Source: an uncultured Spirochaetota bacterium (GTDB lineage: Bacteria; Spirochaetota; Spirochaetia; JAFGXN01). From it: DNA of 64,000 nucleotides. Within the stretch, counting starts at the first letter, position 1. Each line of letters starts with the position of its first letter. Location: the NCBI GenBank assembly GCA_944388995.1, contig CALXKN010000003.1, forward strand, positions 62,001 to 126,000, read 5' to 3'. This document shows positions 19,579 through 61,435 of this stretch, one piece after another. The position numbers were made by a program, and so were the translations under genes. The notes beneath the pieces are model-generated. The model saw only the letters and a list, made by a program, of their open reading frames with translations, searched no databases and was not told the DNA's origin.

Positions 19579-20355
19579 ATGACGGTTTTTCAAACGGCGG
19601 CGCCTTGGGTCTTTTGGCTGGCGCTTTACGGTTTTATCGGCTGGGTTTACGAATCGATTCTCTGCTCCGTCAAAGCGCGTAAATGGATCAACCGAGGCTT
19701 TCTGCATGGACCGTACTGTCCTATCTACGGATTCGGCGCTGTCACCGTCATTCTCGTTCTCGGCCGCATCTCAAATCCCGTTGCCCTCTTTTTTCTCGGA
19801 GCGCTCCTCACCTGCACACTCGAATACATCACCTCGTGGGGAATGGAGAAACTTTTTCACGCCCGGTGGTGGGACTATCGATACATGAAATTTCAAATTA
19901 ACGGACGCGTTTGTCTGGCGGGCGCTGTCATTTTTGGAGCGATGACCGTAATTGTCATCAAAGCGGTTCATCCCTTTGTTTCTGAAATGACAGCCCGCAT
20001 TCCGTTTCCGTGGCTGGCGGCGATTGACGCTGTATTAATTGTCGGAGGGGCTGCCGATACCGTTGTGACCGTTGTTCGTCTGAAAAGTTTCAACCGCAGA
20101 CTTAAAGAAATCGACGCCAAAGTGCGGGAAATCCTCGATGAAGGACGCAAAGAGTGGCATCGTCGAGTGGAGCAGGCAGCCGAAGAGAGCCGTGGAACCG
20201 TTGACCGCATCCGCGAGGCGTACAATGCTCGCCGGAGTGAATGGCAAAAGGTTCTCGATTATCAGCAGAATTTGAAAAAGAAATTCCCCGCCTATCGTTC
20301 CGTTTTGTGGCACGACGCCTTCGAGCAGCTGCGCCGCTCTGTCAAAGAAAAATAA
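19579..20355 (+). CDS. CmpB-type putative ABC transporter permease (PF06541 family)
   Basis: 258 residues with four to five membrane segments in the first 160 (WVFWLALYGFIGWVYESILCS, FGAVTVILVLG, LFFLGALLTCTLEYITSWGME, VCLAGAVIFGAMTVIVI, AIDAVLIVGGAADTVV). A cytoplasmic coiled-coil tail follows. The GWVYES, NRGFLHGPYCPIYGFG and EYITSWGME motifs mark the ABC_trans_CmpB family, common in Firmicutes and spirochaetes but without a proven substrate or ATPase partner. GGAGA precedes ATG. Nine bases after secA, so same transcript. Confidence 0.86.
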   Translation: MTVFQTAAPWVFWLALYGFIGWVYESILCSVKARKWINRGFLHGPYCPIYGFGAVTVILVLGRISNPVALFFLGALLTCTLEYITSWGMEKLFHARWWDYRYMKFQINGRVCLAGAVIFGAMTVIVIKAVHPFVSEMTARIPFPWLAAIDAVLIVGGAADTVVTVVRLKSFNRRLKEIDAKVREILDEGRKEWHRRVEQAAEESRGTVDRIREAYNARRSEWQKVLDYQQNLKKKFPAYRSVLWHDAFEQLRRSVKEK

Positions 20356-20656
20356 ACTTCTGCCGCCGTCCGGCTTCCGCAAATCGCTCCGCACGGTTTT
20401 TTCAGAGCTTCGGGCGCATGTGCGCTTTCCGCGCACACCGGGCTTTCCGCTGCAATTCGCGGCATCCCGGGCTTTTCACCGCGGCAAAGCTGCCGCTTTG
20501 CCCTGCGCCTTTTTTCCGTCTGCCGCTCATTTCCGCTTCAATCCCTTGCGCCTTCGGCGAAAATAGTGCTTTATTTGCGAATCGGAGGCTCTTCAATGCC
20601 GGCGTTAACAAGAGATTGATCTTCAAAACCGCAAGCGGTCGGGAAAGATGTTCTTT
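20356..20656 (+). other. Gene-free convergent gap carrying interspersed repeat copy 1
   Basis: No gene supported. The middle holds the repeat described at 20401-20566. The rest (20567-20656) is unremarkable sequence up to the end of the acetyltransferase gene. A 74-codon minus-strand frame here is only the translation of the repeat. Confidence 0.7.
20401..20566. repeat. Interspersed structured repeat, copy 1
   Basis: About 160 bases closely similar to 61274-61435. Shared blocks include TCAGAGCTT, CGGGCTTTCCGCTGCAATTC, the hairpin GGCAAAGC-TGCC-GCTTTGCC (20483-20502), and CGCTCATTTCCGCTTCAATC. A second stem, GTGCGC-TTTCC-GCGCAC (20420-20436), occupies the place where copy 2 has a different stem, GCCCC-TGC-GGGGC. 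The 8-bp hairpin is followed on the plus strand by TTTTTT (20510-20515), so it may end transcription. Both copies sit between convergent genes in the same orientation. Confidence 0.88.
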
Positions 20657-21319: not shown

Positions 21320-21492
21320 CAAAAAGCATTGCCGTTTCGTTATTTTGCGGGCGTCCCGGCTTCGCCGTCGGCGCCCTCCGAGCTCGGTCTGCCCGTCTGT
21401 CGACGGGCAGACGGGCTTGCGCCCCTCTCCGGGCGCCTGACGCCTTCGGCAGCGCTTTGGGAACTTTTGCGAATCGGCTGCCTGAACGCGGT
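21320..21492. repeat. Palindromic intergenic element downstream of the LysR gene
   Basis: A gene-free block containing a perfect 9-bp inverted repeat, GCCCGTCTG (21391-21399) with CAGACGGGC (21408-21416), 8-base loop. Around it are GC-rich direct pieces (GGGCGTCCCGGCTTCGCCG, CTCTCCGGGCGCCTGACGCC). Its composition resembles the 20401 and 61274 repeats (many small palindromes, TTCGCC and CTTCGGC pieces), but I cannot align it to them, so it is probably a second repeat type. No gene between 21227 and 21492. Confidence 0.5.
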
Positions 21493-60093: not shown

Positions 60094-61269
60094 ATGAAAC
60101 AAGAGTTCCTCCCACTTCTTTTGGCAGCTCTTTGGATGCTCTTTGGATGCAATCCGGCAACCGGACCGATTGTCGTCAACTCCTCCCTCTCCGTGCGCAG
60201 CAAATCGCTTGAGTCGATGACGCTGGCGTGGTCGCAGGCTCAGGACGTTAACGGCAACAACGAAACGCTGGAGTATCAGTTGGTTGTCTCCGAATCGCCC
60301 GAGATTGAGACACTTTCGGATATCAACCGCAACGCCCGGACCGTGCGCGCGTGGGGCGTCAACTACACTTCGACAGAAGTTGATCTGGACGGAAGCGAAC
60401 GGATTCTCTACTACAATGTCATGGTCCGCGACACCGTCGGAACCATCTCTTTTTATTCGCCGCTGGAAGTCGACTTTACCGACCGCACCGCGCCGACTGT
60501 CGGCGATCCGACGCTGACGGTCAACGAAATCACCTCAAAATCGCTGCGCCTCGCCTGGAACCCCGCGTCCGACAACAACACCGACGGGCAGGACATCGTC
60601 TACGTCGTCATGAGATCCGCTTCCGACAACCTTGGCGCCGCCGGCGACTACTACAATACCGCCGACGGACGCCATATCTGCTTCGAAAAGGCGGCCGTTA
60701 CCGACACTCTTATCGAAGCGCTTCCGGAAAGCGCCTCCCTTTACCTTAACGTCTTCGCCCGCGACAGCAACGGCAACGTGACGCCGTACACCCCCGTCGT
60801 GGTCACCCTTCTGCCTCCTGTCACCGTCAAAGAAGAGGATTCGCAAATCGTCTGCACCTATCCGCTGTCGGCTGACGAAACCGTCACCCTGACGCTCGCC
60901 GTCTCCGACGGCCTTGCTTCCGGCACGCTGCCACCCGATTCGCCGTTGTGGGCCGCCGTCTGCCAGTGGGCGGCCGCTTCCGACGGCAACATGGAAGGGC
61001 AGGGAGTTTACGGGTTTGAATCCGTTGATCCAGCGGCCGCGGACCTCTCCGGACTTACGGAGACCGACGCCCGCCTCCTTTCCAACGCCCTCACCGAATA
61101 CACCGCCGCTTATGCCGGTTCCGGCTCTCCCGCCTGCCGCTATACCTCAGGCGGCGCCCCGGCCCGCACACCGGAAGAAGCGCGGAGCGCCGACGACGAC
61201 CCCGGAGCCGCCGCCTTTACCGTCGAACCCGACGGGTTGCTGACCGTTACCCGTCCCGTTTCCCCTTAG
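60094..61269 (+). CDS. Lipoprotein with two fibronectin type III-like domains
   Basis: 391 residues. Lipoprotein signal with lipobox LFGC. Two FN3-like beta domains (about 25-130: SLESMTLAWSQAQD...YYNVMVRDTVGTISFYSPLE; and 140-245: SKSLRLAWNPASD...LYLNVFARDSNGNVTPYTP), then a region of about 140 residues without recognised fold (YPLSADETVTLTLAVSDG...), ending in a low-complexity Asp/Ala/Arg tail. It is likely a cell-surface or periplasmic binding protein. The interspersed repeat follows its stop. Confidence 0.76.
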   Translation: MKQEFLPLLLAALWMLFGCNPATGPIVVNSSLSVRSKSLESMTLAWSQAQDVNGNNETLEYQLVVSESPEIETLSDINRNARTVRAWGVNYTSTEVDLDGSERILYYNVMVRDTVGTISFYSPLEVDFTDRTAPTVGDPTLTVNEITSKSLRLAWNPASDNNTDGQDIVYVVMRSASDNLGAAGDYYNTADGRHICFEKAAVTDTLIEALPESASLYLNVFARDSNGNVTPYTPVVVTLLPPVTVKEEDSQIVCTYPLSADETVTLTLAVSDGLASGTLPPDSPLWAAVCQWAAASDGNMEGQGVYGFESVDPAAADLSGLTETDARLLSNALTEYTAAYAGSGSPACRYTSGGAPARTPEEARSADDDPGAAAFTVEPDGLLTVTRPVSP

Positions 61270-61273
61270 CCGG

Positions 61274-61435
61274 CATCAGAGCTTTCCTCCTTGCGCGCCC
61301 CTGCGGGGCCGGGCTTTCCGCTGCAATTCGCGGCCTCCCTCCGCCTGTTTCCGTGGCAAAGCTGCCGCTTTGCCCTGCGCCGTCTTTCCGTCGGCCGCTC
61401 ATTTCCGCTTCAATCCCTCGCGCCTTCGCAGAACA
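61274..61435. repeat. Interspersed structured repeat, copy 2
   Basis: About 160 bases similar to 20401-20566, in the same orientation. Contains hairpin GGCAAAGC-TGCC-GCTTTGCC (61355-61374), identical to copy 1, and stem GCCCC-TGC-GGGGC (61297-61309), which differs in sequence from copy 1 but keeps a stem. The copy ends about two bases before the last codon of the MFS gene on the other strand. Like copy 1 it separates convergent genes. Confidence 0.88.

Follow-up and report, generated by a model that had tools for sequence, protein, structure and literature searches.

The window analysed here, a 64,000-nt stretch from an uncultured Spirochaetota bacterium, contains two related intergenic blocks, each in a gap between convergent genes. 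The first lies between genes that border it at 20355 (plus strand) and 20657 (minus strand), and the second between genes bordering it at 61269 (plus) and 61437 (minus). The shared block runs from 20400 to 20566 in the first gap and from 61285 to 61428 in the second, and alignment of the two copies extends across about 160 bp, including stretches of 92% (83 nt) and 97% (31 nt) identity. The folded unit proper is about 145 bp long and is read on the minus strand (Table 1). Similarity searches of the genome containing the window (G000; 1.93 Mb, a 27-contig draft, 98% complete) returned 25 near-full copies, query included, and three fragments, and the E-values of the other copies (5e-44 to 2e-30) are far beyond chance. 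There are 22 matches in a metagenome-assembled genome (MAG) of a sister species in the same genus (G001), and the core 18-mer is matched up to 579 times in the relative G080, a probable termite-gut inhabitant. The interspersed repeat reported in the first-pass annotation is thus real, both in the window and across the genome and its relatives; the assignment of the host to Treponema is only approximate, being correct for the Spirochaetota lineage and uncertain for the genus.

Table 1. Coordinates of the element, its parts and a related element in the window; all sequences are given for the minus strand.
Feature	Position	Strand	Basis or remark
Flavo-1-type three-way-junction element, copy 1, whole unit	20411..20556	-	RNA and DNA folds, copy alignment, Flavo-1 match at 20432-20563 (27.4 bits)
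P1 5' arm, GGCGCA	20547..20552	-	pairs with 20413-20418
P1 3' arm, TGCGCC	20413..20418	-	fold and pair counts
P2 arm 1, GGGATTGAAGCGGAAAT, core in common with Flavo-1	20529..20545	-	almost invariant in 44 copies; RF01705 alignment
P2 arm 2, ATTGCAGCGGAAAGCCC	20440..20456	-	paired to arm 1, with two 3x3 internal loops rich in G/A
P2 inner helix 5' arm, GCGGCA	20521..20526	-	pairs with 20459-20464; covarying pairs
P2 inner helix 3' arm, TGCCGC	20459..20464	-	covariation counts (helix 4)
Inner hairpin, GGCAAAGC-GGCA-GCTTTGCC	20483..20502	-	same in both window copies; folds
P3 hairpin, TGTGCGC-GGAAA-GCGCACA	20419..20437	-	the stem first noted as swapped; 11 distinct P3 stems in the genus, first 6 bp fully paired
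Flavo-1-type element, copy 2	61285..61428	-	alignment to copy 1, genome search, RNA fold
Copy 2 P1 arms	61419-61424 and 61293-61297	-	
Copy 2 P3, short, CCCC-GCA-GGGG	61298-61308	-	
Third-family element, P1 GGCGTC/GACGCC	21349..21447	-	same architecture, different P2 interior; flanks of other copies match it at 82-88% identity across about 117 bp

In the predicted fold, two hairpins, one long (P2) and the other short and highly variable (P3), lie within an outer stem (P1); minus-strand copies read CGAAGGCGCGA-GGGATTGRAGCGSAAAT-...-ATTGCAGCGGAAAGCCCGG-hairpin-CGCGCCC. The three-way junction emerges from unconstrained folds of copy 1 as both RNA and DNA and of copy 2 as RNA; copy 1 has z-scores of -2.6 (RNA) and -3.0 (DNA), but that of copy 2 is -0.4, and its fold, taken alone, would prove nothing. 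P1 consists of GGCGC(A/G) paired with (T/C)GCGCC, its last pair being A-T in copy 1 and its orthologue and G-C in most other copies. P2 is formed by two near-identical GATTGNAGCGGAAA arms that are mutually paired, with 3x3 loops of GNA/GGA and GGA/GNA, followed by an inner helix and the GGCAAAGC hairpin. On the plus strand this hairpin reads GGCAAAGC-TGCC-GCTTTGCC and is identical at 20483-20502 and 61355-61374, in agreement with the first-pass annotation, which had also described a neighbouring stem that differs in sequence between the copies while the fold is kept; that stem is P3, and the description is accurate.

At the gathering thresholds, a search of the window against Rfam returned tRNAs only, and a link to the Flavo-1 family (RF01705) emerged only through the copies in relatives. 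The same core in spirochaete genomes G050 and G113 matches Flavo-1 at 50-61 bits, and at least 138 Flavo-1 matches occur in each of G050, G080 and G113, with scores of up to 73 bits. Once the threshold is opened, the window copy aligns to the whole model (E = 5.6e-4 in 271 nt, E = 0.13 in a 63-kb search) but its 27.4 bits fall short of the gathering score of 42, and we therefore refer to it as Flavo-1-related rather than as a strict member; the low score of the window copies is probably due to their 72-nt P2 interior. The two-arm feature of Flavo-1, ccGAUuGaAGcGGAAau and auUguAgCGgAaAGCgg with two internal 3x3 loops, is present in both the model alignment and de novo folds.

The likeness to Flavo-1 lies in the same arms, paired through two 3x3 G/A-rich loops, whereas the Rfam model stops at P2 and lacks P1 and P3. 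In 139 of 158 spirochaete copies, P2 is followed by a P3 of at least 6 bp (8 when shuffled), and Bacteroidota and alphaproteobacterial copies have a shorter P3 and a covarying P1 (for example GTGT/ACAC, GCGTG/CACGC and GCAAG/CTTGC), as judged by inspection and with no statistic attached. Flavo-1-type matches occur in 19 genomes from 12 genera in a 296-genome sample of the phylum, and a scan for the arm motif finds it in Spirochaetales MAGs, Bacteroidota (Flavobacterium, Chryseobacterium, Kaistella and Tannerellaceae), Defluviicoccus and others. From these sequence comparisons the Flavo-1 motif is recognizable as one arm, P2, of a larger predicted three-armed fold. Flavo-1 was originally listed as a Bacteroidetes motif, rated as probably RNA and with no function assigned (Weinberg et al. 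2010, PMC2864571). The window element, from a spirochaete lineage, extends this kind and is a new variant of it. The first reading had recognised neither the link to Flavo-1 nor stem P1 on the outside nor the sister families with a common frame described below.

On alignment A3, RNAalifold failed to form most of the pairs between the P2 arms, probably owing to the 3x3 loops, and we therefore counted the pairs of the named structure instead. The structure was named by hand and counted over 18 distinct copies, in which 96.9% of cells are paired and seven pairs have double (compensatory) changes, located in P1, the inner helix and P3; shuffling gave a mean of 1.9 such pairs, with none of 500 shuffles reaching seven, and slid structures gave 0-2. 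Covariation is therefore present, and the proposal that the fold is conserved while its stems change is upheld. P3 is especially diverse: genus-wide there are 11 distinct stems, with the first six pairs complete in 100% of copies having a P3 of at least 6 bp, versus 40% when partners are swapped, and outside the genus and G050 there are 56 distinct stems (95% versus 22%). In the latter set the junction-side pair of P1 occurs as A-T, C-G and G-C.

These compensatory changes argue for a functional structured RNA, either a small RNA or a 3'-UTR element, with an effect on adjacent transcripts such as their protection or termination. The rating of Flavo-1 as probably RNA (PMC2864571) and its filing in Rfam as an sRNA point the same way, as does the location of 11 of 25 copies in convergent gaps. 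We caution that compensatory changes alone need not imply selection on RNA. Among 129 P3 hairpins just 13 cells are non-Watson-Crick, a near-perfection that is suggestive only, as the hairpin finder favours perfect stems. Within the P3 mismatches G.T outnumbers A.C by 7 to 2, which is a weak hint of selection on RNA in numbers too small to decide between an RNA strand and DNA. Had the stems evolved stepwise as RNA, more G.U intermediates should remain, and for this reason we infer that P3 changes by wholesale replacement or fold-back copying.

Placement relative to genes bears on the same question. The 25 copies in G000 occupy 11 convergent, 11 tandem (six on the same strand as the genes, five on the opposite strand) and three divergent gaps, as classed by a small hexamer gene finder with three cases settled by eye; for background, the window has 54 gene pairs, of which 6 are convergent. 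Among 50 copies placed in other spirochaetes, 13 are convergent, versus 17 of the 108 gaps that measure 40 bp or more, and those in tandem gaps are divided 14:11 between same and opposite strands. The enrichment between convergent genes anticipated from the two window copies is thus modest, and it is confined to the genus of the window. Both of those copies do lie between convergent genes, but their common orientation is uninformative in a convergent gap, and across copies there is no orientation preference relative to genes. The suggestion that the hairpin marks transcript 3' ends fares poorly, since tandem copies are about equally on either strand and no intrinsic terminator (a G+C-rich hairpin followed by a T-run) was found on either strand between 20200 and 20760, nor any promoter pattern around copy 1. 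In the Flavobacterium psychrophilum transcriptome, Flavo-1 appears in sense or antisense indistinctly, with no consistent strand and with many copies outside transcribed regions (PMC9723704). These observations, and the presence of many copies at non-matching places in the sister species, count against the structured RNA, which we regard as unlikely.

We also considered a conserved short protein and rejected it. Core lengths are 0, 1 and 2 modulo 3 in 11, 16 and 17 copies respectively, so no frame is kept, and a Pfam search of the overlapping ORFs gave no match. The short minus-strand ORFs, the translation of which is present as reported, are repeat artefacts, as had been suspected.

Comparison with G001 reveals considerable turnover. 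Both flanks are common to the two genomes for five copies, including copy 1, and copy 2 has a counterpart in the same convergent gap in G001 in the opposite orientation. At least five other copies have flanks that occur in G001 without a full copy beside them, and at least six copies have flanks that are far apart in G001, while the window itself is collinear with contig C1 of that genome (30 of 33 probes). No exact empty site with contiguous flanks, from which a target duplication could be read, was found in G001. The flank comparisons indicate that copies come and go and that they lie at points of rearrangement, with the proviso that misassembly at repeats is possible in a MAG (G001) and in a draft assembly (G000). 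Two of the copies, L003 and L008, are in a 1.17-kb tandem duplication (contig C8 of G000, 72449-73739), the units of which are for the most part 100% identical and each contain one Flavo-1-type copy. Of 22 neighbouring copies on contigs of spirochaete MAGs, 19 are oppositely oriented; contig breaks frequently fall at copies, and the pattern may be an assembly effect.

The coincidence of at least six copies with synteny breaks while the window is collinear, and the local duplication of L003 and L008, would be accommodated if a few ancestral copies had multiplied passively, through duplication, rearrangement and homologous recombination alone and unaided by a mobilising enzyme. The hundreds of copies in relatives and the cross-phylum spread would be hard to reach passively, and we hold this explanation to be very improbable. 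At low copy number, the element could spread by recombination and local duplication of the kind seen at L003 and L008.

The element has sister families with a common frame. A second family, with 13 matches in G000 and 15 in G001 (counting fragments), agrees with the element in its CGAAGGCGCGAG start, P3 types and CGCGCCC end but has a wholly different P2 interior, and it folds into the same three-arm frame. A third family, which has its inner hairpin in common with the second, is represented in the window by an element between two minus-strand genes (Table 1). In G050 the Flavo-1 core forms the interior of at least three miniature inverted-repeat elements (MITEs) with different terminal inverted repeats (TIRs; AGAGCCTGTT, GGGTGCACCAATTTTTTCCGTGC and TGAGCYGGTTCCAAAAT). 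Such carriage does not apply to the genus of the window, and we rejected a TIR-bounded MITE there, the median TIR score in G000 and G001 being 7, the same as in shuffled flanks.

Other repeats and genes adjoin the element in places. Another repeat (about TTCTGCCGAAGTCAGAATGCCGCGTTAAAAGGCGGCGGATTCGCAAA) often lies on its 5' side, as at six of the loci. In G197 and G324, Flavo-1-type elements recur every 3-12 kb on one strand, and several border an RHS or orphan polymorphic-toxin-like ORF at its 5' edge, as though amplified together with these cassettes. We considered polymorphic-toxin arrays as a functional link and set this aside; they look like lineage-specific co-amplification in these two genomes and not a general function.

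The many copies, gain and loss between sister species, the flipped copy, the absence of strand bias, the exchangeable interiors and the diverse near-perfect hairpins fit mobile DNA better than an RNA gene. Copy numbers, patchy occurrence across phyla, differences between sister species, the second family built on this P1/P3 frame and the carriage of the core inside MITEs in G050 speak for mobility; the lack of TIRs in the genus, of a clean empty site with target duplication, and of a Y1 transposase or RAYT in G000, G001 and G113 speaks against it, and no gene associated with the element was found. We consider a life as mobile DNA likely but unproven. In its specific form, we lean towards a non-coding, non-autonomous Flavo-1-related repeat that multiplies as DNA and has a folded core mobilised in trans. 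The conserved arms and junction would be recognised by a putative mobilising enzyme acting in trans, and P3 and the P2 interior would be exchangeable stuffing kept palindromic, probably by the wholesale replacement or fold-back copying proposed above and not through step-by-step compensation; the element may be best tolerated in gaps close to gene 3' ends.

A broader proposal, which we advance tentatively and with more doubt than conviction, is that Flavo-1 is the P2 module of a modular, cross-phylum superfamily of mobile DNA and not primarily an RNA gene, with a common P1 and P3 frame, a swapped interior, and arms renewed by fold-back copying that mimics RNA covariation. Flavo-1 is a listed RNA family, and two further helices are present in the related spirochaete elements (in Bacteroidota and Alphaproteobacteria by inspection). 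With interspersed repeats of up to hundreds of copies and a sister family with the same frame, 'sRNA of unknown function' becomes a testable claim about mobile structured DNA.

Among known mobile repeats, the element resembles REP, BIME and REPIN sequences in its many short palindromic intergenic copies, its mosaics and its preference for gene 3' sides. REPs are palindromes of 20-40 bp with an unpaired GTAG or CGTC tag at one end (PMC3733652), whereas the element is 145 bp long and lacks such a tag, its ends being CGAAGGCGC... and ...GCGCCC. A RAYT-driven REP was rejected for the genus of the window, as the Y1 transposase (PF01797) was not found in G000, G001 or G113; RAYT fragments are present in G050 and G080. 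A REP- or BIME-like DNA site bound by a putative nucleoid or topology protein, and retained for its benefit to the chromosome, would suit the intergenic, hairpin-rich copies that form mosaics with other repeats and lie mostly near gene ends. Copies of the element turn over between sister species, the tag and RAYT of known REPs are missing, and we find such a site improbable. MITEs are likewise short, non-coding and present in many copies, and in G050 they contain the core; the difference is that terminal inverted repeats were not found in the genus of the window. Rickettsia palindromic elements are hairpin-forming sequences of about 100-150 bp that can be read through in frame. The element is like them in its similar size, its hairpins and its occurrence inside ORFs in four genomes of about 2.8 Mb.
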